A stretch of DNA of 64,000 nt from Dyella jiangningensis (GTDB lineage: Bacteria > Pseudomonadota > Gammaproteobacteria > Xanthomonadales > Rhodanobacteraceae): contig CP007444.1 of the NCBI GenBank assembly GCA_000632805.1, forward strand, positions 2,654,772-2,718,771, given 5' to 3'. The notes beneath the pieces were generated by a model. It was not told the origin of the DNA and did not search any database. It saw only the letters and a program-made list of their open reading frames with translations. Position numbers and translations under genes: made by a program. Within the stretch, counting starts at the first letter, position 1. Each line of letters opens with the position of its first letter. Of this stretch, positions 6,688 to 44,090 are shown in pieces.

Positions 6688-6772
6688 GATGCTTCTCCGA
6701 AGTTCGCCTGCAGTCTCGACCGCCGCCGGTTGCCTTGCTGTTGCCGCACTGTCGATGAGTTGGCTCACGCGC

Positions 6773-6800
6773 AAAAAAAAGGCCCAGCATGGCTGGGCCT
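6773..6800 (-). terminator. Rho-independent terminator of the M1 aminopeptidase gene
   Basis: On the minus strand, GGCCCAGC-CAT-GCTGGGCC is followed by eight T. It lies 27 bases after the stop codon of the gene at 6827. Confidence 0.92.
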
Positions 6801-6826
6801 CAAGAAGCGCTTGCAATGGCGATGGC

Positions 6827-9475
6827 TTAGCCGCCGTTCTTCGCGAGCCACGCATCTACCGACGGCAGGCGTTCGTTGCGCACCATCATGCGGTACTTGA
6901 TGTTAGCCACGGCCGTCTCGGCATCGCGACGCGAGCTTGGCGCCAGGTACTTGGTCGCATAGGCGTTGATCTTGTCGATCATGGCCTGGTCGAACGCGCT
7001 GCTGCCGAGCGCCGGGTAATAGCGGCTGCGCGAGCTGCCGTCCACCACCTTGTCCACTTGTTCGCGATGTGCGATGGCGAAGTCGAACGCCAGTTCCGGA
7101 TGCAGACGCGACACGATGCGAATCATGCCGGCGCTATTGGTGGCGCCAGGCTCATCGGTCAAGGCGAGGTCGAGCGCTCGCTTGGCGAGCGCTTCGTCTT
7201 CCACCGAAGCGAGCTGCGCGTACAGGCGATCCTTCACCAGCGGCGTCGTCTCTGCCTTCGCCGCGGCATGCATCTTGTCCCAGGTGGCGGCGTCGGCATG
7301 AGCAGCCACGACCGCCAGGATGGTCTTGCGCAATTCCGCCGGCACGGCCTTCGGATCGGTGGCCTGCGCCGCATAACGACGACGTGCCTCGTCGATGACG
7401 GTGCTGTCGCCGAGGCTGGACAGAGTGTTGATCAAGTGGCTGCGCAGGATCGTGGTCGGCACGCTCTCGTTCGGCTTGGCTGCCCAACCTACGCGCGCGA
7501 ACACCGGTGACAAGCGTTTGATCGCGTACGCGCGGAACGTCGCCTGGCGCTTGGCATCGCCGCGGTAGTAGTCGTTGAGCGCTGAGAAACTGCCGGCCAC
7601 TTCGTCCCATATCTGCGGATCGGCATCGACCGGCGTGGCTTTCGCCAGATCCAAGAAATCCGCCACCGGCTGCAGGCCGGCCATGCTCAGCGCCCAGGTA
7701 TCGCTCATCACGCCGAGCTGGTCGATCGGTTCGAGCTTGGTGAAGCTCTCCTTGATCGCCGTGACCTGCGCCGGCGCGTACAGCGTGCGGTAGTAGCCGC
7801 TCTGCCCGGCGTTTACCAGCACCGGACCGCAGCCCGGCACCGCCAGCGTGGCTTCGCCATCGACCAGCGTATGCACCGGCTTGCCACCGATGCTCTGCGC
7901 CGTCACCGGCACATGCCAGCGCAACGGCTTCTTGCCCGGGCGATCCTTGGTGAACTCGCCCTGCGTGAGCTTGAGCGTCACCGCGTTGTTGGCGCATGCG
8001 CCGGCTTCCACGCGAATCAGCGGAATGCCCGGCTGCAGCGTGAATTCGTGCGCGATGGTGGTGACCTGCTTGCCCGGCACGACGGCATCCATGGCATGCC
8101 ACAGATCGTCGGACACCGTGTTGCCGTAGGCATGCGCCTTGATGTAGTTGCGCACGCCGGTGCGCCAGTTGTCGGCGCCCACGTAGTTTTCCAGCATGCG
8201 AATCACCGACTCGCCCTTGGAATAGGTGATCGAGTCGAACGCCTGGCTGGCCTGCTCCACCGTGTCGATGCGCTGCACGACCGGATGCGTGGTGACCACG
8301 GCGTCGCGCGACATGGCGCCTTCACGGGTGCCGACCGCATCGAGCTTGGTGTTCCACTCCGGGTGCAGGCGATCGGTGGTGCGCGAAGCCATCCACGAGG
8401 CGAAGCCTTCGTTGAGCCACAGGTCATCCCACCAGCGCATGGTCACCAGATCACCAAACCACTGGTGCGCCATCTCGTGCGCGGCGGTGCCGAACACGTT
8501 CTGCTTGTCCTGCAGCGTGGAGAAGGACGGATCGAGCAGCAAGGCGTATTCGAAGGTGTAGATCGCGCCCCAGTTCTCCATCGCCGAGAAGAACTGGCTG
8601 CTGCCCGGTGAGGCGACGTTGTCGAGCTTGGGCAGCGGATACGGCACGCCGAAGTAATCGTTGTATTCCTTCAGCACCGCCTTGCCCGATTCCAACGTGA
8701 AGGCGCCCTGCGCGCTCAAACCCTTCTGCGTCACCACGCCGATCTCGACGCCTTCGGAGGTCGTGGTGATGCGATCGAACTCGCCCATGCCGAAGAACAA
8801 CAGGTAGGTCGACATCTTCGGCGACGTCTTGAACGTGATGTGCGAGAGGCCGTTGCCAGCGTCGGTCTTCGAGGCAACCGGCATGTTGCTCACCGCCATG
8901 TCGCCGGCGGGGACGGTCACATCGAGGTCGAACGTGGCCTTGTAGTTCGGCTCATCCCACGACGGGATGAAGCGGCGCGCATCGGAATTTTCGAACTGGG
9001 TGTACAGCGCACGCTTCTTGCCGGCTTTGGTGTCGTAATCGATAGCGAACAGGCCGTTGGCCTGCGTGCCGATCTTGCCGGCGTAGCTCATCGACAGCTG
9101 GTACTTGCCCTTGGCGATGGGCTTGTCGAAGGTGAAGGTCGCGGTCTGCGCATCGTTGTCAGTGCTCACTTTCGGCACCAGCGCGGACGCGCCCTTGCCT
9201 GCCGCGAGCTCCACCTTGCTGAAGCTCATGTCGATGGCATTGAGCGTGATGACGTTGGTCGGCGCGAGCACTTCCACATCCACCATCACCTTGCCGTCGA
9301 ACGTCAGCGTGGATGCGTGCGGCGTGATCGACACGGCGTAGTGCGAAGGACGCACGGCGCGAGGAAGCTGGGTGGTGGTCTGCGCCGCGGGCGCGGCATC
9401 GGCCGCCAGCGAGTCACCGGTGAAAGTCACGCCAGCCAATGCGAGCGCAATGGCGGAAACCAGGCGAGTACGCAT
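6827..9475 (-). CDS. Exported M1-family zinc aminopeptidase
   Basis: An 882-residue gluzincin with a signal peptide (MRTRLVSAIALALAGV to about residue 25), so it is periplasmic or secreted. The zinc site HEMAHQWFGDL gives His333, Glu334 and His337, with the third ligand Glu356 in NEGFASW. The exopeptidase motif appears as SAMENWG, where GAMEN is usual. The C-terminal half is the ERAP1-like helical domain. It removes N-terminal residues from peptides and likely works with the S46 dipeptidyl-peptidase at 17.4 kb in peptide feeding. The ATG at 9475 follows GAGGGG and starts the signal peptide. The longer in-frame start lacks one. It appears monocistronic. Confidence 0.95.
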   Translation of the reverse strand: MRTRLVSAIALALAGVTFTGDSLAADAAPAAQTTTQLPRAVRPSHYAVSITPHASTLTFDGKVMVDVEVLAPTNVITLNAIDMSFSKVELAAGKGASALVPKVSTDNDAQTATFTFDKPIAKGKYQLSMSYAGKIGTQANGLFAIDYDTKAGKKRALYTQFENSDARRFIPSWDEPNYKATFDLDVTVPAGDMAVSNMPVASKTDAGNGLSHITFKTSPKMSTYLLFFGMGEFDRITTTSEGVEIGVVTQKGLSAQGAFTLESGKAVLKEYNDYFGVPYPLPKLDNVASPGSSQFFSAMENWGAIYTFEYALLLDPSFSTLQDKQNVFGTAAHEMAHQWFGDLVTMRWWDDLWLNEGFASWMASRTTDRLHPEWNTKLDAVGTREGAMSRDAVVTTHPVVQRIDTVEQASQAFDSITYSKGESVIRMLENYVGADNWRTGVRNYIKAHAYGNTVSDDLWHAMDAVVPGKQVTTIAHEFTLQPGIPLIRVEAGACANNAVTLKLTQGEFTKDRPGKKPLRWHVPVTAQSIGGKPVHTLVDGEATLAVPGCGPVLVNAGQSGYYRTLYAPAQVTAIKESFTKLEPIDQLGVMSDTWALSMAGLQPVADFLDLAKATPVDADPQIWDEVAGSFSALNDYYRGDAKRQATFRAYAIKRLSPVFARVGWAAKPNESVPTTILRSHLINTLSSLGDSTVIDEARRRYAAQATDPKAVPAELRKTILAVVAAHADAATWDKMHAAAKAETTPLVKDRLYAQLASVEDEALAKRALDLALTDEPGATNSAGMIRIVSRLHPELAFDFAIAHREQVDKVVDGSSRSRYYPALGSSAFDQAMIDKINAYATKYLAPSSRRDAETAVANIKYRMMVRNERLPSVDAWLAKNGG

Positions 9476-34419: not shown

Positions 34420-35106
34420 ATGGAACTGACCGGTACCGATTTTCTCTCTGGCCTGCTGGCCATCATCCTTCTTGACCTGGTGCTCGCTGGCGACAACGCC
34501 ATCGTGATCGCCCTGGCTGCACGCAACCTTCCGCGCCAGATCCAGAAGAAGGCCGTGATGTGGGGCACCGTGGGCGCCATCGTGGTGCGCCTGCTGATGA
34601 CGGCCATCGTGGTCTATCTGTTGAAGCTGCCCGGCCTGATGCTCGCCGGCGGCCTGTTGCTGTTGCCGATCGCGTGGAAGCTGCTGCAACCGGAAAAGGA
34701 ATCGGCCCATGAAGTCGACGCCGCCGCCGGCTTCTGGTCGGCGATGCGCACCATCATCGTCGCCGATGCGCTGATGGGCCTGGACAACGTGCTGGCGATT
34801 GCCGGCGCCTCGAAGGGACACATGCTGCTCGTGATCATCGGCCTGGCGATCAGCGTGCCCTTGGTGGTGTGGGGTTCCACGCTGATACTGCGCCTCATCG
34901 AGCGATTCCCCATCGTCGTTTACATCGGCGCCGCTGCCATCGCATGGACGTCGGCGCGCATGATTGCCCACGACCATTGGCTGTCGCCGTGGTTCGATGC
35001 GCATGCCTGGGCCCGTTATGCGCTGGATGCATTGCTGGTCGTCGGCATCTGCCTGGCGGGCTGGTTGATGCAGCGACGACACCGCCGCCTCCATGCGAAG
35101 GCTTGA
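34420..35106 (+). CDS. TerC-family integral membrane protein, probable metal (Mn2+) exporter
   Basis: 228 residues with about seven membrane spans. The two family motifs with conserved Asp are present: LVLAGDNAIVIALAARNLP near the N-terminus and ADALMGLDNVLAIAGASKG in the middle. TerC-family proteins of this size (YjbE/YkoY-like) are linked to Mn2+ export and to metalation of exported enzymes. The adjacent yybP-ykoY riboswitch strongly supports a manganese role. Tellurium resistance, the historical name, is less likely. It is followed 57 bp downstream by the GST gene on the same strand. Confidence 0.9.
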   Translation: MELTGTDFLSGLLAIILLDLVLAGDNAIVIALAARNLPRQIQKKAVMWGTVGAIVVRLLMTAIVVYLLKLPGLMLAGGLLLLPIAWKLLQPEKESAHEVDAAAGFWSAMRTIIVADALMGLDNVLAIAGASKGHMLLVIIGLAISVPLVVWGSTLILRLIERFPIVVYIGAAAIAWTSARMIAHDHWLSPWFDAHAWARYALDALLVVGICLAGWLMQRRHRRLHAKA

Positions 35107-35163
35107 GGCCTGTGCACTTCGCAGGCGACACTGCGCGGTTTCCGCTGACCAAGGATCGACCGC

Positions 35164-35775
35164 ATGAAGTTGTATTACCTGCCCGGCGCCTGTTCGCTGG
35201 CCGACCACATCGTGCTCGAATGGATTGGTCGTCCCTATGAGACGTATCGGGTGGCGCGCGAGGAGCTCGGCACACCGGCCTACCTGCAAATCAATCCGTC
35301 GGGCGCCGTGCCGGCATTGCAGGAAGATGACGGCTGGGTGCTCACCGAAAACGCCGCGATCCTCAACTACCTTGCCGATCTGAATCCGGAAGCGCGACTG
35401 GGTGGCGACGGTTCGGCGCGAGGTCGTGCGGAGGTGAATCGGTGGCTCGCGTTCATCAACTCCGATCTTCATCCGTTGTTCCGGCCGGTGTTCCGTCCAG
35501 AGCGCTTCATCGACGACGAGACCGCCCAGGAGGCATTGCGCGCGAAATCCATCGCGCGGCTGCGCGACTACTACGAACGCCTCGACGCGCAGCTCGAGGG
35601 ACGCGACTGGCTTACGGGCGCGCGTTCGTTCGCTGATCCCTATCTCTTCGTGGTGCTGCGCTGGGCCGTGGCCAAGGGCGTGAAGCTCGACGGGCTGGAC
35701 AATCTCGCGCGCTTCCACCAGCGCATGCTGGCGGATGCGGGCGTCCAGGCGGCCATGCAGCAGGAGGGCCTGTAA
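35164..35775 (+). CDS. Beta-class glutathione S-transferase
   Basis: 203 residues. The N-terminal thioredoxin fold has the beta-class signature MKLYYLPGACSLADHIVLEW with Cys10. The glutathione-binding NPSGAVPAL and TENAAIL (cis-Pro and Glu/Asn-Ala) motifs are present. The helical C-terminal domain has the N-capping-box region SFADPYLFVVLRWA. It conjugates or binds glutathione for detoxification in the cytoplasm. The substrate is unknown. It may be co-transcribed with the terC-type gene. Confidence 0.93.
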   Translation: MKLYYLPGACSLADHIVLEWIGRPYETYRVAREELGTPAYLQINPSGAVPALQEDDGWVLTENAAILNYLADLNPEARLGGDGSARGRAEVNRWLAFINSDLHPLFRPVFRPERFIDDETAQEALRAKSIARLRDYYERLDAQLEGRDWLTGARSFADPYLFVVLRWAVAKGVKLDGLDNLARFHQRMLADAGVQAAMQQEGL

Positions 35776-35793
35776 TCCGCGCATGCGCGGGTG

Positions 35794-37260
35794 CTAGTAC
35801 ATCATCGGCACGCGCACGGTCACCGTCGCGTCCGGTGTGTCGCGTGTCACGCCCACACCGACCGTGAAGTTGAGCGTGCGCTTATCGTTGAATCGCCAGG
35901 AGCCGCCGAGCAGCAGCGTGCCGAGCACGATCTTGGTCGAACCCGGCACGCGCTGCCCGTTCTGCTTGGTCGGGCCGACGAACGCCTGCTCGTAGCCGAT
36001 GCTCATCGATGCCTTTTCATTGAGCGACAGGCCCATGCCAATGCTGAGATCGACGATATCGCCAGGCTTCACCTTGCCCAGTTGCTCGGTACCACCCAAC
36101 AGGATGTGCCGGGTGACGTTGTCACGCGGCACGTTGTAGAGATAGCTCACGTTGCCGAACAGCACGATCGGATCGGTGGGATAGAGCCACGTGACGCCAG
36201 GCTGCAAGGACCAGAAGCCGGTACCCGAAGGCTGATGCAGGGGCAATCCCGTGCCGGTCACCGAAAGCGGGACTTCCGAAAGCACATTCTCGACGCAACG
36301 TTGCACGCAATCGGTGGTGACTTCGAAGGGGTCCTTGCCCGAGTTGGATTTCACCCGGAACCAGCCGACGTAGAACGCCTTGTCCGGGCCGCCGACGTTG
36401 AGCTGATAGCGTATCGTCGCCTCGATATCGCCCAGGCCGTTGCCGCTGGTACCGAAGGCGTTGTCGGTCGCCGTGCCCGTGAAGATTTCGCGGCTCACCG
36501 TGTCCTGATGCGTCCACACGTACGGCACGCGCAGTTCAACTTCCATGCGGTCGGTGATGCCGTAGCGTCCGGTGAGCCAGCCGATCTGCGTGGTGGTCTT
36601 GACCTGGCGCGCATCGATCAGGCCGATCAGGATGGCGGGAATGACCGTGTAGCCGACCAGCGCTACGCGATCGACCGACGAATAGCCAAACTGGTAGGCC
36701 GGCTCGATGACGAACCTGCCCTTGGGCGTGAGCACGCCGGGCTGCTGAAAGATGGGCGCCACTTCCGGAGGACGCGTGTCAGGCTTAGGTGCTTCGCCGA
36801 CCGGTTGCTGCTGCGGTGCCGGAGCGACGGCAGCTACCGAATCGGCGGCCGGCATAGGCAATGCCGAGGCGCCCGCACCACCCGCCGCGATGTTGCCGGC
36901 GCGCTGCTTGTCGAGCACATCGATACCTACCGCGTGACGCAGCGATTGATAGTCCGCCTCCTGCTCGGCCAGTGCGCGCTTCATGGCATCCAGCTGGGCC
37001 ATCTGCGCGCTGATCTGGCTCCGCATCGCCTCGATGCGATCACCCTGCTCCGCTACCTTCTTGCGGATATCCGCGGAATCGGCGGGCGTCTGCGGCGACG
37101 CGGGGACCGACGCAATGGGATTGGATGCCACGGGCGCGGGCGTGACGGCCGCTCCTCCCGCCGGCGCGCCAGCCTGCTGGGCCGCGACCGGAAGGCCCAG
37201 CATGACCAGTCCGGCGCATCCTGCCGTCCATACATATCGCCACGTTGAGTATCGCATCAT
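35794..37260 (-). CDS. Fap-like outer-membrane secretion channel (FapF-like), coiled coil plus beta-barrel
   Basis: 488 residues: a signal peptide (ending about VAAQ, residue 28), a Pro/Ala stretch, a coiled coil (about 62-110, DIRKKVAEQGDRIEAMRSQ onward), a long Ala/Pro/Gln linker (about 120-178), and a C-terminal region of alternating amphipathic strands (about 180-488) ending in MMY. A terminal aromatic is typical of outer-membrane barrels. This is the layout of FapF, the trimeric porin that secretes Fap amyloid subunits. It is the last gene of the five-gene operon. The two start codons, 37260 and 37257, follow GAGGAAGC. Identity as FapF is inferred from layout and context; a general porin is the alternative. 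Confidence 0.75.
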   Translation of the reverse strand: MMRYSTWRYVWTAGCAGLVMLGLPVAAQQAGAPAGGAAVTPAPVASNPIASVPASPQTPADSADIRKKVAEQGDRIEAMRSQISAQMAQLDAMKRALAEQEADYQSLRHAVGIDVLDKQRAGNIAAGGAGASALPMPAADSVAAVAPAPQQQPVGEAPKPDTRPPEVAPIFQQPGVLTPKGRFVIEPAYQFGYSSVDRVALVGYTVIPAILIGLIDARQVKTTTQIGWLTGRYGITDRMEVELRVPYVWTHQDTVSREIFTGTATDNAFGTSGNGLGDIEATIRYQLNVGGPDKAFYVGWFRVKSNSGKDPFEVTTDCVQRCVENVLSEVPLSVTGTGLPLHQPSGTGFWSLQPGVTWLYPTDPIVLFGNVSYLYNVPRDNVTRHILLGGTEQLGKVKPGDIVDLSIGMGLSLNEKASMSIGYEQAFVGPTKQNGQRVPGSTKIVLGTLLLGGSWRFNDKRTLNFTVGVGVTRDTPDATVTVRVPMMY

Positions 37261-37364
37261 GCTTCCTCATGAGCCGGGTTCAAAGGCTTGCGGACGAACG
37301 CCTCGCGACGATCGATCGCGACGGATTCGCGTCTGGAAACGACGGTGTCGAAGCGCGCTTCATG

Positions 37365-37955
37365 TCAGTGCCCGATGGCCTGCAGCTGCGCCTGTTGCAA
37401 CGCGTCCTGGAAGTTCGCCTGGCGGAATACGTTGAGCGAATTGACCGACGTGTTGATCGTGGTGATGCTCTGGATGTGCTGCCCGTTGAGCGTGTTCTGA
37501 ATCACCGTCGCGCCCGCGTTCTGGCCGATCGATGACGGATCGAACGTGTTGTTCGGCCCGATCTGCGTCACGGTCACCGTATTGAGCGCGGACTGCATCG
37601 CCGTCGCCTGGGCCGGCGTCATGTGCGCGATGTCCGGTACGTTGAAACTGGTCGAAGTGACGAGGTTGCCGTTGACATATACGGCGCGATCGATGCCGAA
37701 CGACGCCATCAGTCCATTGCCCAGGTCATAACCGCCGCGGGCATCGTCCAGCGTGTCCTGGCTCACCGGCGTCCAACCTGCCAGGTCGTCCGAGGTGGGT
37801 ATGCCGCTCACGACGTGGGCAAGCGCAGAGGGCTCCGCCGCGGCGGGAACGATCGCGGGTGCCACCATTTCCTGCGCCTGTGCGCCGACCATCCACGGGC
37901 CGCCCGCCAGGAGCAGCGTGCCCAGACCTATCATGCATGCGACGGGTTTCATCAT
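37365..37955 (-). CDS. Small secreted protein with double-glycine motif (FapE-position)
   Basis: 196 residues with a signal peptide ending AQAQ (about 28). The motif VSQDTLDDARGG (Gly74-Gly75) matches the VDNATLADLSGG motif of the gene upstream of the protease and resembles C39 protease recognition sites. The C-terminal half is rich in Asn, Gln, Thr and Ser and contains ATVIQNTLNGQHIQSITTIN, related to the C-termini of the other two secreted proteins of the operon. By gene order it stands where fapE stands in Pseudomonas. It begins 6 bases after the protease stop, with GGGAG as Shine-Dalgarno. No database family is recognised. Confidence 0.8.
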   Translation of the reverse strand: MMKPVACMIGLGTLLLAGGPWMVGAQAQEMVAPAIVPAAAEPSALAHVVSGIPTSDDLAGWTPVSQDTLDDARGGYDLGNGLMASFGIDRAVYVNGNLVTSTSFNVPDIAHMTPAQATAMQSALNTVTVTQIGPNNTFDPSSIGQNAGATVIQNTLNGQHIQSITTINTSVNSLNVFRQANFQDALQQAQLQAIGH

Positions 37956-37961
37956 CGCTCC

Positions 37962-38645
37962 CTAGAGATCGTCCGGCCCTTTCTTGGGCATCACTAAGTT
38001 GTAGAGACCATTGCGATCGATGACCGAGTTGACCGGCGCGCCTGGGGCCACTTTCCAATCGTTCGCACTGTTGAACACCGCCAGGTTGCGGCGGTTGTGG
38101 ATCACGAAGACCAGTCCGTTCTTCCACATCGACATGAACCGCGTTTCCGACAACACGCGCGTACCGCGCGCCGGATCGCCCACCAGCACGCGCCCGTTGC
38201 GCATGCCTTTCACCACGACGAAATGGTGGTAGCCCTTTTCGTCGATCAGCACGATGGCCGGAAGGTTTTCCTGTGCAAGCTTGTCCAGCGGCACCTTGTA
38301 GCCGTCCGCCTGGAAGCCATTGGCTTCGAGAAAGCGCTTGATGTCCAGCAGCGAAAAGCCTTCCCGGTTGATCTTGGCCTGGTCGCCATGCGTGTACATC
38401 TGCTCGAACGCGACCTGCTCATCCACCGGATAGCCATACTGGTAGGTCAGCAACGTGGCCACCGCGGCAGAGCCGCAGCTGAAGTCGTACTTCTGGTGAA
38501 TCGTGGCCTTGTAGCGCGCTTCCTTCACGCTCGTCAGGTGCACCGTGTACAAGCCCGTGCCGCCCGCGACGGCGACCGGCGTCGTGGCATGTCCTTCCAG
38601 CGGCAGCGCCGCGATCAGGATCCACAGCGCCGCCCACTTGCTCAT
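37962..38645 (-). CDS. C39-family cysteine peptidase, periplasmic (FapD-like)
   Basis: A 227-residue stand-alone C39 protease with a signal peptide (about 1-21) and no ABC-transporter part. Catalytic residues are intact: oxyanion Gln51 and Cys57 in HQKYDFSCGSAAVATLL, His141 in GYHHFVVVKG and Asp157 in VGDPARGTRVL. C39 enzymes cut after double-glycine motifs, and both small proteins encoded next to it carry such a motif. It matches FapD in type and gene position. Its ATG overlaps the stop of the upstream gene (ATGA). Cleavage of its neighbours is a prediction. Confidence 0.9.
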   Translation of the reverse strand: MSKWAALWILIAALPLEGHATTPVAVAGGTGLYTVHLTSVKEARYKATIHQKYDFSCGSAAVATLLTYQYGYPVDEQVAFEQMYTHGDQAKINREGFSLLDIKRFLEANGFQADGYKVPLDKLAQENLPAIVLIDEKGYHHFVVVKGMRNGRVLVGDPARGTRVLSETRFMSMWKNGLVFVIHNRRNLAVFNSANDWKVAPGAPVNSVIDRNGLYNLVMPKKGPDDL

Positions 38646-39061
38646 GGCTGGAACTGGACGTTGAGGACAGTGGCGTTCTGGATCAGCACGCTATTGCCGG
38701 AATTCTGGATCACCGTCGGGAAACCGGTGGCCCCGCTCAGCGAATTGCCCATGATCACATTGTCGCCAGTCACCACGTGGTCGACATTGTTGTTGGACAT
38801 CGTTCCGGACAGGTTGGTGTCCTGCCAGATCAGCGTGCCACCGCTGAGGTCTGCCAGGGTAGCGTTGTCCACGCTTGCACCGAGGTCCTCCGCGACGCCC
38901 TGATGATCGACCTGGCTCGCGGCGATATAGACGGCTATGGGTGAATCCGCACCATCGGCGAGGTACGACGAAGGAATCTGCGCGTCTTTCGCGCAAAGCA
39001 TCGCGGGTGACGCAAGAGCGCAGCACGCGGTAAGACCAAGCATCCACTTGAAGGATCGCAC
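38642..39061 (-). CDS. Small secreted protein with double-glycine motif and Asn/Gln-rich C-terminus
   Basis: 139 residues with a signal peptide (about 1-25, MRSFKWMLGLTACCALASPA). It has a double-glycine motif, VDNATLADLSGG (Gly74-Gly75), and a C-terminal part rich in Asn/Ser/Val: NNNVDHVVTGDNVIMGNSLSG, cut here to its core, and TVIQNSGNSVLIQNATVLNVQ. The C-terminal pattern recurs in the other two secreted proteins of the operon. It could be a minor amyloid subunit, nucleator or chaperone; no family is recognised. It is translationally coupled to the C39 protease gene. Confidence 0.8.
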   Translation of the reverse strand: MRSFKWMLGLTACCALASPAMLCAKDAQIPSSYLADGADSPIAVYIAASQVDHQGVAEDLGASVDNATLADLSGGTLIWQDTNLSGTMSNNNVDHVVTGDNVIMGNSLSGATGFPTVIQNSGNSVLIQNATVLNVQFQP

Positions 39062-39146
39062 GGCACAATCTCCCAGGGCGCGCAGGCACCCATTCGATCG
39101 AAGCTCGTATCAATCAGTCGTCCCTGAAGACGGCCGCCTTGCAGCA

Positions 39147-39182
39147 CCACGCACGGTGGAACCGGCGTCCCACCGTGCGTGG
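39147..39182 (-). other. Strong intercistronic hairpin after the first gene of the Fap-like operon
   Basis: A perfect 13-bp stem, CCACGCACGGTGG/CCACCGTGCGTGG, with a 10-base loop lies between the Gly-rich subunit gene (stop 39194) and the next gene (start 39061). No T-tract follows on the minus strand. It could partially terminate or protect the upstream mRNA from decay, raising the first product over the rest. Confidence 0.6.
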
Positions 39183-39193
39183 ACTCCTCACAC

Positions 39194-40177
39194 TTAGTGA
39201 CTGAAGTTCAGGTTGGCCTGAACGTTCACGCTCTGCTGTACCAGCGAGGCTGCGCCGCTGTTCTGGGCAAGAATCGACACGCCCGCCGCAGCGGAGGCCG
39301 AACCGTTCATCTGGTTCGACATGTCGAACGCACCCGTGGTGGCATAAGCCGTGCCGCCTGCACCCGCTGCGCCGCCCGCACCGCCTGCGCCGCCCGTGCC
39401 CGAGCCGCCGGTCCCGCCAGTGCCTGCGCCGCCTGCACCGCCGGCGCCCGCCATGCTCGACGAGCTACCGCTGGTTCCGCCGGTTGCCGAGGCATTGCCG
39501 CTGGTTCCGGTACCGGCGCCTGCCGTGCCGGAGCCACCTGCCCATGAGCCGGTGCCACCGGTCGAGGTGCTGGTGTTGGTGCCAGCGCCGCGAGCGCGTG
39601 CATGAGCGCTGGCGTAGTTGTCACCGTCACTGCTTCCGCCACCCGCAAGTGATGCACCGCCGGCATCGCCGCTCGACGCACCGCTGCCGCCTGCGCGACC
39701 GCTGGCCGAGAGGGCGTCGCCGCCCGATCCGCCACGTCCGCCATTGCCGCCAACGGCCTTGCCGCCGTCGCCGCTTCCGCCACGTCCGCCACTTCCGCCA
39801 CGTCCGCCATTGGCGTTGCCGTTGTTGGTGGCGTAGTTGCCGATGTTGCTTACCGATACGTCACTGACAGTGCCGCTCAGATCGCTGCTGGCAACAGCAG
39901 TGCTGCTGTTGAACGCATCGGAGAACGATGCTGTTGCGGTTCCGCCGTTATTGGCAGCCGCAGTGCCCGCACCGGCAGAAGCCGCGTCGCCCGAGTTGAA
40001 CGCATCCGTGAAAGTCTTGGTATGCGTGCTCGAGTTGGTGTTGGAGTGAGTACTTGAGTTGGTACTGGTACTGGTGATCGCGCCTGAATTGCCTGAGTTG
40101 TCCGTGTTATCCGCGAAGGCGGGAAGTGCCAATCCCAATCCCAGCACGATCGCGGTCGCAATTAGAGTCTTACGCAT
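39194..40177 (-). CDS. Gly/Ser/Asn-rich secreted protein, candidate amyloid subunit of a Fap-like operon
   Basis: 327 residues with a signal peptide (1-22, ending AFA). After a Thr/Ser/Asn-rich stretch come two similar segments, TFTDAFNSGDA (56-66) and SFSDAFNSSTA (84-94). A long low-complexity Gly/Ala/Ser region with Arg-Gly-Gly blocks spans about 120-280. The C-terminus has the motif VSILAQNSGAASLVQQSVNV (300-319). No Cys. The composition and the first position in the operon suit a secreted structural (amyloid or matrix) protein. ATG 40177 is chosen at 9 bases from AGGAG; ATG 40183 is two codons upstream. Codon use is biased by the Gly tract. A role as a FapB/FapC equivalent is inferred, not shown. 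Confidence 0.8.
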   Translation of the reverse strand: MRKTLIATAIVLGLGLALPAFADNTDNSGNSGAITSTSTNSSTHSNTNSSTHTKTFTDAFNSGDAASAGAGTAAANNGGTATASFSDAFNSSTAVASSDLSGTVSDVSVSNIGNYATNNGNANGGRGGSGGRGGSGDGGKAVGGNGGRGGSGGDALSASGRAGGSGASSGDAGGASLAGGGSSDGDNYASAHARARGAGTNTSTSTGGTGSWAGGSGTAGAGTGTSGNASATGGTSGSSSSMAGAGGAGGAGTGGTGGSGTGGAGGAGGAAGAGGTAYATTGAFDMSNQMNGSASAAAGVSILAQNSGAASLVQQSVNVQANLNFSH

Positions 40178-40248
40178 GGTCATTACTCCTGGAACGATGC
40201 GGTGACCCCCTGTATTGCTGGTGTCGCAAAATCCAGCACGCAGTAGAC

Positions 40249-40263
40249 GCAACATGCATGCCA
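40249..40263 (-). promoter_or_regulatory. Predicted sigma54 (RpoN) promoter of the Fap-like operon
   Basis: On the minus strand, TGGCATGCATGTTGC matches the -24/-12 pattern, with GG and GC separated by exactly 10 bases. The expected start is near 40237, leaving a leader of about 60 bases. That leader begins with a small hairpin (TGCTGG/CCAGCA, 40216-40238). Confidence 0.5.
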
Positions 40264-40580
40264 CCACGCCGTTGCGCCCGTTCACGCTCGGCCGTCCTTT
40301 GGAATCAGGGGTTTGAAGAGACTCTTTGGCAGTGAGCCGTGGTTTCAGTCAGGTTCTTCGGCGCAGTGCTGTCTCAGGCTTGTGACACCCGATGAGAAGC
40401 TTGGTATAGAGCGCGATGCCGCGCGCCGCACGCATCAATCGAAGAATCAGCGGCTTGCACCACGTTTTCGTGTGTATTTCGTGGCGCGGCAGAGGCGTAA
40501 CAACCGCGTTACACCCGTGCATACAAAATGATAGCAATGTCGTACAGGGTCCTGAACGGGAACGAAAGTTAAGGAAAAAA
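40264..40580. other. Gene-free region upstream of the Fap-like operon
   Basis: About 320 bases without a credible gene. If the sigma54 site is real, this is where an enhancer-binding protein would bind. No clear paired operator was found by eye. Confidence 0.4.
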
Positions 40581-40582
40581 GA

Positions 40583-40607
40583 AGGGAGCCCTGCGGCTCC
40601 CCTTTTT
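40583..40607 (-). terminator. Terminator of prpC
   Basis: GGGAGCC-GCAG-GGCTCCC on the minus strand, followed by a T-rich run (TTCTTTTTT). It lies 20 bases after the prpC stop. On the plus strand the stem is followed by CTTTTT, so it may work both ways. Confidence 0.88.
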
Positions 40608-40626
40608 ACGCCAAATGGAATGTCGA

Positions 40627-41772
40627 TCAGCGCTTTTCGATCGGAACGTACGCCTGGTCCTCGGGACCGGTGTAGTTGGCGCTCGGACGAATGATCTTGC
40701 CATCGATGCGCTGCTCGATCACGTGCGCGCTCCAGCCGGAGGTGCGTGCGATGACGAACAGCGGAGTGAACATGGCGGTCGGCACACCCATCATGTGATA
40801 CGCGCTGGCCGAGAACCAATCGAGATTCGGGAACATCTTCTTCTGCTCCCACATCAGCTTCTCGATCTTCTCCGACACGTCGAACAGGGTCGGATTGCCG
40901 CCTTCGGTGCAGAGCTTGCGCGAGACTTCCTTGATGATCTCGTTGCGCGGATCGGACACGGTATACACCGGGTGGCCGAAGCCGATGATGATTTCCTTGC
41001 GCTCGACACGGGCGCGAATATCCGCTTCCGCCTCGGCCGCATTGCGGTAGCGCGCGATGATTTCCATCGCCACTTCATTGGCACCGCCATGCTTGGGACC
41101 GCGCAGCGCGCCGATGGCACCCGTGATGGCCGAGTACATGTCCGAGCCGGTGCCGGCGATCACGCGCGCGGTGAACGTGGACGCGTTGAATTCATGCTCG
41201 GCGTAGAGAACAAGCGACTTGTCCAGCGAGTGCGCATGCAGTTCGCTCGGCTTCTTGCCGTGCAGAAGGTGCAGGAAGTGGCCGGCGATGGATTCGTCGT
41301 CCGTCTCCGTCTCGATGCGCTTGCCGTTGTGGCTGAAATGGAACCAGTACAGCAGGATCGAACCGAAGCTGGCCATCAGGCGGTCGGCGATATCACGCGC
41401 ACCGGTGATGTTGTGGTCGTCCTTCTCCGGCAGCACGGTGCCAAGCACAGAGCAGCCCGTGCGCATGACGTCCATCGGATGCGTGGCGGCCGGCAGCAGT
41501 TCCAGCGCGCTCTTCACCGGCGCAGGCAGGCCGCGCAGGCGCTTGAGCTTGGCGCGATAGGCGTTCAACTCCGCCCAGTTCGGCAGCACGCCGTGCACCA
41601 GCAGGTAAGCCACTTCCTCGAAGCAGCCCTTGGCCGCCAAGTCATGGATGTCATAGCCACGATAATGCAGATCGTTGCCGCTGCGGCCCACGGTGCACAG
41701 CGCGGTGTTGCCGGCAGCCACACCCGACAGTGCGACGGATTTCTTGGGCTTGGGAAGGGTTTGTTCGCTCAT
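40627..41772 (-). CDS. prpC: 2-methylcitrate synthase
   Basis: A 381-residue citrate-synthase-fold enzyme that condenses propionyl-CoA with oxaloacetate. Active-site residues are His193 (AEHEFNAST), His228 ([10 protein letters not shown]), His267 (GFGHPVY) and Asp318 ([18 protein letters not shown]). The short length and [16 protein letters not shown] pattern favour 2-methylcitrate over citrate synthase, as does the adjacent prpB. The ATG at 41772 follows GAGGAG at 9 bases; an in-frame ATG nine bases upstream overlaps that sequence. Confidence 0.95.
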
Positions 41773-42736: not shown

Positions 42737-42839
42737 GGTGGTTCTCCGAAACCTCATATTCTAGGCGATGCGATGACTACGCCATGTAGCGGCGCAGCAG
42801 GCGCCGAGCGCGGAAGACACTGTGTCATCGGTCGATGTA

Positions 42840-42866
42840 TTGATCAATCTTGATCCAAAGGATCAA
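42840..42866. promoter_or_regulatory. Palindromic operator candidate between prpBC and the HTH-citrate synthase gene
   Basis: TTGATCCAAAGGATCAA (42850-42866) is a perfect 7+3+7 palindrome. A second palindrome, TTGATCAA (42840-42847), lies two bases before it and shares the TTGATC half-site. Placed in the divergent control region, it could serve both transcripts. The HTH domain of the adjacent gene is the obvious candidate binder, by inference. Confidence 0.5.
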
Positions 42867-42875
42867 TATGTCCGC

Positions 42876-44090
42876 ATGCGAGCCGACTATCTCTCCGCCC
42901 AGGAAGCCGCCACACGTCTTGGTGTGAGCCCCGCCACGCTGTATGCCTATGTCAGTCGCGGCAAGATCGATTCCCGGCCCGGCGCCGACGGACGCAGTCG
43001 CGAGTACCTGGCCGACGACATCGAGCGGTTGATCGAACGTCGACAAGCCGGCCGCGGCGCGGCAAAAGCGGCGGCGCGCAGTCTGACCTGGGGTCTGCCG
43101 GTACTTGAGACGCGTATCTCGCTGATCCGGCCCAATGGCCATTACTACCGGGGCGAATCGGCCATCGCGCTGGCGACTGACGGTGCGAGCCTGGAAGACG
43201 TGGCGCGTTTGCTGTGGGGCGGCGATGGCGATCCCTTCGCGACCATGCCGCCGCGCAGCTGGCCTGGCGCAGTAGCCATGCTGATGCGCCGCGACGATGT
43301 TCCGCCACAGGAACGTACCGCGGCGGCGCTGCCACTGATCGCACTCACCTCGCCCTACACGCACAGCTCCGATGCCCAGCAACGGAGGGAATGCGCGGCA
43401 CGCCTGTTGCGCGAGACGGCGGCCTTGCTGTGCGGCATACGTCCCAGTCACCAGCCCATCCATCGCGTGATGGCCGGAAACTGGCATGAAGGGGACGAAG
43501 GCCTCGCCGAGATCGTGCGCAGCACGCTGGTGCTATGTGCCGACCATGAACTCAATGCGTCTGCCTTCGCCACGCGTGTGGCTGCATCCACCGGCGCCAG
43601 CCTTCATTCGGCCGTGAGCGCGGGCTTGGCGGCCCTGTCCGGGCCGCAGCATGGTGGCGCCGCCGCCCGTGCCTATGCACTGATCCAGGAGGCGCAGCGC
43701 GATCGCCGCCCTGCCGACCACGTGCGCGAGCGCCTGCGTCGCGGCGACGAACTGCCCGCTTTCGGGCATCCGCTGTATCCCGATGGCGATCCGCGTGCCG
43801 CGCTGCTGTTGCGCATGCTCGACGATATGCGTCCACGCCTGTCGGGCCTCGTGCGAATCAGGCAGCTGGTCGATGCCGTGCACGACAGTGTCGGCCGCCA
43901 GCCCAGCCTCGACTTTGCGCTGGCCACCATCGCCACGTTGTACGGGCTTGGACCGCATGCTGCGTTGTCGCTGTTCGCGGCGGGGCGCATGGCGGGCTGG
44001 CTCGCACATGCGCTGGAGCAGCAGGATTACGGCGGGTTGATTCGTCCTCGCGCCAACTACGCCGGCACGCCGCCCGGGCGGCGCGACTGA
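42876..44090 (+). CDS. Citrate synthase-fold protein with N-terminal helix-turn-helix domain
   Basis: 404 residues from ATG 42876. An HTH of the excisionase/MerR-like type occupies the first 55 or so residues (YLSAQEAATRLGVSPATLYA, then YVSRGKID). A full citrate-synthase domain follows from about 70. The active-site set is kept: His224 (ADHELNAS), His259 (SGPQHGGA), His298 (FGHPLYP) and Asp346 (PSLDFALA), so catalysis is possible. The gene is divergent from prpBC and convergent with prpE. A GTG at 42822 would extend the protein through the palindromic operator, so the ATG is preferred. It may act as enzyme, as acyl-CoA/2-methylcitrate-sensing regulator, or both; this is undecided. Confidence 0.85.
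   Translation: MRADYLSAQEAATRLGVSPATLYAYVSRGKIDSRPGADGRSREYLADDIERLIERRQAGRGAAKAAARSLTWGLPVLETRISLIRPNGHYYRGESAIALATDGASLEDVARLLWGGDGDPFATMPPRSWPGAVAMLMRRDDVPPQERTAAALPLIALTSPYTHSSDAQQRRECAARLLRETAALLCGIRPSHQPIHRVMAGNWHEGDEGLAEIVRSTLVLCADHELNASAFATRVAASTGASLHSAVSAGLAALSGPQHGGAAARAYALIQEAQRDRRPADHVRERLRRGDELPAFGHPLYPDGDPRAALLLRMLDDMRPRLSGLVRIRQLVDAVHDSVGRQPSLDFALATIATLYGLGPHAALSLFAAGRMAGWLAHALEQQDYGGLIRPRANYAGTPPGRRD

Follow-up and report, generated by a model that had tools for sequence, protein, structure and literature searches.

The closest described relative of the locus reported here is the Fap amyloid system of Pseudomonas (fapABCDEF), which is cited in this study from parts of the published accounts. 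Pseudomonas FapD is periplasmic, and its C38A substitution abolishes FapC secretion; in the same 2017 paper, FapE alone was without peptides from its first ~70 residues, the linker of FapF yielded no peptides, the target of FapD was termed unclear, and the Fap proteins were said to be without canonical C39 sequences (PMC5557850). According to a 2025 review, FapD is thought to process the N-terminus of FapE and the periplasmic region of FapF; thus, FapE processing is not new as an idea. The same review describes recent Fap screens that accepted only loci with FapB/FapC repeats in the vicinity of other fap genes (PMC12822426). FapD and FapF likely belong to larger families (PMC3792158), and fapD-fapF pairs occur in five further phyla (PMC6173800). 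In structures of C39 proteases with their leaders, a hydrophobic groove accommodates residues -4, -7, and -12, with the double glycine positioned at the active site (PMC6363468, PMC6959990). Here, we analyzed a window of 64,000 nucleotides from Dyella jiangningensis (contig CP007444.1, positions 2,654,772 to 2,718,771), in which five genes, designated X, Y, D', E', and F', probably encode a dedicated Sec and outer-membrane secretion system that is a sister to Fap and exports its own cargo.

The five open reading frames (ORFs), all on the minus strand between window positions 35794 and 40183, encode in order a Gly-rich protein (X), a small secreted protein (Y), a C39 protease (D'), another small secreted protein (E'), and a barrel protein (F'). 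Relatives of all five were found in the same order and on one strand in 31 of 32 related loci from other genomes, including one in which the first gene is truncated at the contig end (L095), whereas X and Y were fused by an assembly gap in the 32nd (L067); thus, the arrangement is not due to chance. The intergenic spacing, with a 4-base overlap of Y and D' and gaps of 6 bases (D'-E'), 104 bases (E'-F'), and 132 bases (X-Y), suggests a single operon. Throughout, gene calls came from a simple script, Sec-type signal peptides were assigned by eye, and the locus sets used in different counts overlap in species.

The relationship to Fap is clearest in the protease and the barrel. D' matched the FapD NCBIfam model with 143.9 bits (E 4e-42), below its equivalog cut-off of 330, and consists of the C39 domain only, not fused to an ABC transporter. 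Each of its four catalytic residues recurs in 127-128 of the 128 branch proteases and in 12-13 of the 13 canonical ones (counted with the Fil row excluded), so that D', like FapD, is a periplasmic C39 protease with intact catalytic residues. F' matched the FapF model with 134.5 bits, below an equivalog cut-off of 700 that the canonical FapF of Xanthomonadales also miss (about 340-400 bits). By sequence, the solved FapF was its best structure match (E 3e-23, residues 159-486). An AlphaFold2 model built from 19 sequences showed a long helix at residues 62-110, a low-confidence linker, and barrel strands at 183-483, and the 18 best PDB matches in a fold search with this model were all FapF (best E 3e-17), followed by the COG4313 channel 4rl8 (E 4e-11). 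F' is therefore predicted to be a FapF-type barrel with an N-terminal coiled coil. A motif that by eye resembles the PTG noted for FapF reads PTG in 14 of the 19 rows of an alignment, whereas F' itself has PSG. In the host genome, which was searched as one 5.4 Mb contig, a second match to the FapF model (21.8 bits, model positions 11-82 only) was set aside. On these sequence matches, we regard D' and F' as genuinely related to FapD and FapF, even if their scores stay far short of the curated Fap cut-offs. The sequence-only reading of this DNA had described the same gene order, a stand-alone periplasmic C39 protease, and a barrel protein with coiled coil and linker, and had likened the last three genes to fapD-fapE-fapF; this was borne out, with the protein between protease and barrel a remote FapE relative, and the best solved match of the barrel, by sequence and by fold, was FapF and not an unrelated porin.

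The sequence-only reading had further supposed a distinct branch of the Fap system, and the phylogenetic distribution agreed. Of the 299 genomes sampled from the order Xanthomonadales, 89 had a match to F', and the scores separated into groups: 475 bits or more in 54 genomes, 49-119 bits in 36 (canonical distance), and 28-40 bits in 4 weak ones. Five genomes fell in both main groups and carried the two barrel types at separate loci. When 25 genomes were searched again with the FapF model, branch barrels scored about 135-170 bits and canonical barrels 340-400 bits. The 32 loci described above were fetched from the 54 branch genomes, and eight of the 36 canonical-distance genomes, when fetched, showed a fap-like A-B-C-D-E-F order (in L100, E had been missed by the gene caller). 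In a tree of 51 chosen barrels, 36 branch rows lay on one side of a branch with support 95/75 and 14 canonical rows on one side of another with support 95/97; in this tree FilC forms a very long branch, and the program warned that long branches meet. Together with the FapD and FapF scores, the tree places the system in a separate branch apart from canonical Fap.

The branch extends beyond the order. At the level of the class, 45 of 369 genomes matched the FapF model at E up to 1e-5, and 18 of these, the host included, had a match in the branch range (111-171 bits); for all 15 that were fetched, the branch model gave a better score than its canonical counterpart. In the phylum, 38 of 398 genomes matched the branch profile at 1e-10, canonical ones included. 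Branch peptide patterns were found in 474 stretches of GTDB contigs, of which 442 encode a relative. The best 80 of these 442 came mainly from Dyella, Rhodanobacter, and Luteibacter, and also, among others, from Frateuria, Fulvimonas, Lysobacter, Luteimonas, Cupriavidus, Ralstonia, Paraburkholderia, and Burkholderia, so that the branch reaches Burkholderiaceae; the nearest named relative among these 80 was Dyella sp. EPa41, with an F' 95% identical. Plasmid records, 18 of which matched, added relatives in Alphaproteobacteria and Vibrionaceae, and a matching layout in Croceicoccus marinus carries no annotation beyond "C39 family peptidase", "transporter", and hypothetical proteins. Variant layouts were also observed: in three branch loci of other Gammaproteobacteria (L138, L140, and L143), E' and the barrel are separated by an additional gene encoding 137-140 aa, and in four gammaproteobacterial loci (L132, L134, L136, and L145) the barrel, preceded by a gene of 441-481 aa, lies on the strand opposite Y-D'-E'.

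We then compared the presumed cargo with the Fap subunits. X consists of 25% Gly, 18% Ala, 16% Ser, 11% Thr, and 8% Asn; thus, the earlier description of a Gly/Ser/Asn-rich protein holds for Gly and Ser, whereas Asn is exceeded by Ala. Y is small and secreted as had been proposed, but with 8% Asn and 6% Gln it is hardly the Asn/Gln-rich protein envisaged. None of X, Y, and E' matched the NCBIfam models of FapA, FapB, FapC, or FapE at E up to 1, although the same models placed all six proteins of another operon (L251) above cut-off, and the best FapC-model match in the whole host genome lay elsewhere (E 0.035, 14.6 bits). These results agree with the earlier impression that the subunits are unlike FapB/FapC and that no FapA-like gene is apparent; FapA, a chaperone, is often absent in Fap. 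No Pfam family exceeded its cut-off for X, Y, E', or F', and no curlin or CsgG family was among the Pfam and NCBIfam matches of the five proteins. X matched DUF2574 at E 0.0063, but with 16.8 bits the match fell short of the cut-off of 27.5 and was disregarded. Searches of the host genome at E up to 10 gave no additional Y or E'; the one match was that of the E' profile to Y itself (7.9 bits).

Profile-profile comparison (hhalign) was run after signal-peptide trimming, each pair against 40 column-shuffles (39 for one). E' scored 41.7 against canonical FapE profiles (shuffle maximum 19.2; probability 83.6, or 94.5 untrimmed), with the homology in its N-terminal part, and 49.3 against Y (maximum 20.1), and Y scored 31.2 against the C-terminus of X (maximum 17.1). 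Thus, E' appears to be a remote FapE, Y and E' are related, and X and Y share a C-terminal block, which reads AQNSGxxxLxQQxVxVQANL in X, a protein with relatives in 119 of 132 branch loci, and VIQNSGxxVLIQNxTxxNVQF in Y. Against wider FapB and FapC profiles, Y scored 24.6 (maximum 19.0) and 21.4 (maximum 15.1) at weak probabilities of 8.5 and 2.3, which hints at a tie between Y and the FapB/FapC repeats, whereas X against FapC (12.8, maximum 17.9) and the X C-terminus against FapB (11.0, maximum 19.0) stayed at shuffle level. We concluded that the system probably works like Fap, yet in neither X nor Y were the three imperfect repeats detected that are the hallmark of FapB/FapC.

Both Y and E' carry a C39-type leader, with a hydrophobic residue at -12, Leu at -7, and GG at -2/-1, and in the window the predicted sites of both proteins end at residue 75. 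Of the 132 branch loci, 126 gave an E' and 125 a Y (E below 1e-6; the others were left out), and the leaders were counted in fixed columns of a profile alignment after dereplication at 80% identity (94 E', 92 Y). In E', L-7 and R-3 were each present in 92/93 and G-2 and G-1 in 93/93; in Y, the counts were 90/90 for L-7, 88/89 for G-2, and 80/90 for G-1. Canonical FapE showed the same register, ending in G-[RK] followed by Tyr or Phe, in all 21 proteins, two of them encoded in operons with FapF and FapE scores above the curated cut-offs. A leader ending in RG[GRK] occurred in 53/82 E'-type proteins, 20/80 Y-type proteins, 6/6 FapE, and 8/81 barrels, compared with 1 of the 1144 remaining proteins of these loci, and a GG-ending leader in 54/82, 55/80, 0/6, and 7/81, compared with 16 of the 1144. 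In an AlphaFold2 model of Y, which we use as weak support, residues 66-72 (-10 to -4) form a helix. The leaders of the branch are near-canonical C39 leaders and align with the G-R/K of canonical FapE, which on this alignment is a precise candidate for the FapD cleavage site. A literature search, largely at the level of abstracts, did not find the leader register, the near-canonical branch form, or the second leader-bearing cargo. Four residues of D' (53, 59, 67, and 162) differ cleanly between branch and canonical proteases; residues 53 and 59 adjoin the catalytic Cys, and the four are candidates for the preference for G or R/K at -1.

A similar site lies at the coiled-coil/linker boundary of the barrel. 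In 132 branch barrels, L116 was present in 113 and R120 in 114 (12 gaps each); the residue after R120 was G or A in 116, and the one after that G, R, or A in 112. Among canonical FapF, L258, which comes from outside the class, has a clear site at the same boundary, between coiled coil and barrel (LAPDDLVTMRGRY), and clear leader-like sites were also found at the coiled-coil/linker boundary of L149 (TDRELGHLRGKG) and L148 (PDSELERLAGRG). Two further observations concern canonical loci. In 9 of 11 canonical FapA (e.g., L101, L102, and L103), a leader-like helix without a usable cleavage pair was seen, and FapA may bind FapD. A canonical-type fap locus, L257, has an extra small gene upstream (6757-7251, minus strand) with its own double-glycine leader (SLDDQVLSRQRGG), whose product is possibly another C39 cargo.

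Directly 3' of the X stop codon lies a strong hairpin (table 1). The mean z of the X-Y gaps was -3.9 in 31 of 33 loci, the window's own included (L067 and L090, the latter with too short a gap, were left out), and that of seven canonical fapC-fapD gaps of Xanthomonadales was -3.8, compared with -0.04 for 17 E'-F' gaps of at least 50 bases. In a second set of 88 loci, whose species are partly the same, a hairpin with z of at most -2 followed 75 of the 84 X genes, compared with 9 of the 88 E' genes and 21 of the 88 F' genes. An Rfam search of 35000-41500 gave no match at E up to 1, and the stem pattern occurs at two places in the host genome and is thus not a common dispersed repeat. The hairpin is probably an attenuator or a 3'-end stabilizer, and its parallel after fapC makes X the likely counterpart of FapC in dosage, not in sequence.

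Table 1. Features of the secretion locus (positions in the 64,000-nucleotide window).
Feature	Position	Strand	Details
X (P0001), Gly/Ala/Ser-rich secreted protein, probable major subunit	39194..40183	-	328 aa from ATG 40177; ATG 40183 also in frame
Hairpin just after X stop, probable attenuator or 3'-end stabilizer	39143..39185	-	z -4.0; no T run
Y (P0002), small secreted protein, probable minor subunit or nucleator	38642..39061	-	139 aa; GTG start; double-glycine leader
Y predicted C39 recognition site, residues 64-75	38837..38872	-	V(-12) L(-7) L(-4) S G G
D' (P0003), stand-alone periplasmic C39 cysteine protease, FapD relative	37962..38645	-	227 aa; Q51, C57, H141, D157
E' (P0004), small secreted protein, remote FapE relative with double-glycine leader	37365..37955	-	196 aa
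E' predicted C39 recognition site, residues 64-75	37731..37766	-	V(-12) L(-7) A(-4) R G G
F' (P0005), outer-membrane secretion channel, FapF relative	35794..37260	-	488 aa; coiled coil 62-110, linker, beta barrel
F' weaker leader-like site, coiled-coil/linker boundary, residues 111-122	36895..36930	-	V(-12) L(-7) R(-3) A G

The locus is flanked by a citrate-synthase-family gene on one side and a convergent glutathione S-transferase gene on the other. The product of window positions 42822-44090 belongs to the citrate-synthase family and has a helix-turn-helix domain at its N-terminus; a PEP-mutase/ICL-family gene and a citrate-synthase gene run divergently from it, and the group may be a methylcitrate cluster.

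We propose the following mechanism. Sec would carry all five proteins into the periplasm, where D' would engage the leader helices of the two small proteins and cleave E' after RGG and Y after SGG. Cleavage would license or gate F', a coiled-coil barrel that is presumably trimeric and perhaps also clipped at its coiled-coil/linker boundary, and X, Y, and E' would leave through F' and assemble on the surface. There, X, probably the major subunit, would form the bulk, kept abundant by the hairpin 3' of its gene; Y, with a C-terminal block in common with X, would be the probable minor or nucleating subunit; and E' would be a FapE-like anchor. The description as a Fap-like secretion operon holds; functional amyloid, the term of the sequence-only reading, is a hypothesis.

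Several observations weigh against this proposal. X carries neither leader pattern (0/79), and the leader cannot account for its targeting; moreover, Gly at -1 is missing from 10 of 90 Y leaders, and 9 of the 84 X genes are without a strong hairpin. The structure models are of modest confidence for F' (mean pLDDT 54.7) and poor for Y (pTM 0.20, mean pLDDT 55.2). At the barrel boundary, -4 is most often Gln (60/132), which makes this site a weaker leader match, and in one set of canonical FapF the pattern was found in 1 of 10, L258 alone. The Arg/Lys at -1 of canonical FapE departs from the usual double glycine, and PMC6959990 describes a narrow cleft in C39 proteases; in Pseudomonas-type FapE, the motif ends near precursor residue 40 and thus fits only loosely with the ~70 peptide-free residues. 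In one Acinetobacter fil locus, in which some Fil genes were incomplete, the leader occurred in 0 of 8 plus-strand ORFs longer than 100 aa.

Some of these points bear on other explanations of the locus. It is quite possible, if on balance doubtful, that the exported cargo is a non-amyloid Gly-rich adhesin or matrix protein and that Y and E' are chaperones or plugs; the low-complexity Gly/Ala/Ser composition of X and the lack of a detected FapB/FapC repeat are consistent with this, whereas the C-terminal Gln/Asn block common to X and Y would be expected of co-assembling subunits. An ordinary, fast-evolving Fap amyloid, in which X and Y are diverged FapC and FapB and the fibre is a Fap-type cross-beta structure, is unlikely. 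The D-E-F order, the hairpin after the major-subunit gene in both systems, and the scores of Y above the shuffle maxima for FapB and FapC speak for it; however, the hhalign probabilities of those two comparisons are very low, X is at shuffle level against FapC or FapB, the two barrel types occupy separate loci in five genomes, and a tree branch separates the branch barrels from the canonical ones.

We consider it quite improbable that the RGG/SGG sites mark a structural turn and not a protease site: the Y leaders without a perfect GG and the G-R/K ending of canonical FapE could be taken in that sense, but the -12/-7/-4 register and the near-invariant G-2 match known C39 leaders, and both patterns are rare among the neighbouring proteins of the same loci and absent from X. 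Finally, given that the COG4313 channel is the next fold match of F' after FapF, F' might be an uptake porin of that type beside unrelated secreted proteins; with a far better fold match to FapF and genes that stay together across the 32 loci examined, this is extremely improbable.

A wider reading can be offered tentatively, with a likelihood somewhat short of even: Fap and the branch would be two arms of one periplasmic "double-glycine" superfamily, in which a stand-alone C39 protease reads a leader of the bacteriocin-exporter type and the branch exports a Gly-rich polymer unrelated to FapC. Common to both arms would be a leader with a hydrophobic -12, Leu/Met at -7, and Gly at -2, such as bacteriocin exporters read in the cytoplasm; the protease would act on E, on the second cargo Y, and in some lineages on the barrel itself, and FapA could be a protease-binding regulator. 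Apart from this wider reading, the branch indicates that the FapD/FapF machine serves cargo other than FapB/FapC, and a precise cleavage site is predicted for FapD, whose target had been termed unclear. Since recent Fap surveys required FapB/FapC repeats (PMC12822426), the branch should escape them although 54 of the 299 sampled genomes of its order carry it.

Taken together, the branch shares with Pseudomonas Fap the periplasmic C39 protease, a remotely FapE-like protein, the coiled-coil barrel, and the D-E-F order, as well as a leader-like site in the E protein and a hairpin after the major cargo gene, which on the Fap side was seen in the fapC-fapD gaps of Xanthomonadales. Unlike Fap, it has no FapA, FapB, or FapC by model, its barrel lies in a separate clade, and its two cargo proteins, one of them Gly-rich and the other small, each have a single C-terminal block in place of three repeats; a double-glycine leader is also present on the second cargo (Y), and E' ends its leader in RGG whereas FapE ends in G-R/K. 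The putative Fil pilus of Acinetobacter (filA-F) has a C39 protease, FilB, and a FapF-like FilC that match D' and F', but the neighbouring proteins differ, and Fil was rejected as the family of D' and F' because both scored far below the cut-offs (131.3 bits against 475 for FilB, 37.9 against 630 for FilC). With peptidase-containing ABC transporters of type I bacteriocin secretion, the branch has in common the C39 fold and the double-glycine leader register; unlike in those exporters, the five genes include no ABC transporter, the protease stands alone and is apparently Sec-exported, and the leader lies after a signal peptide. Lastly, the branch resembles the fapD-fapF pairs of five more phyla in consisting of co-located relatives without a full fap operon; the part of PMC6173800 cited here gives no cargo or site for those pairs, whereas both are predicted for the branch.

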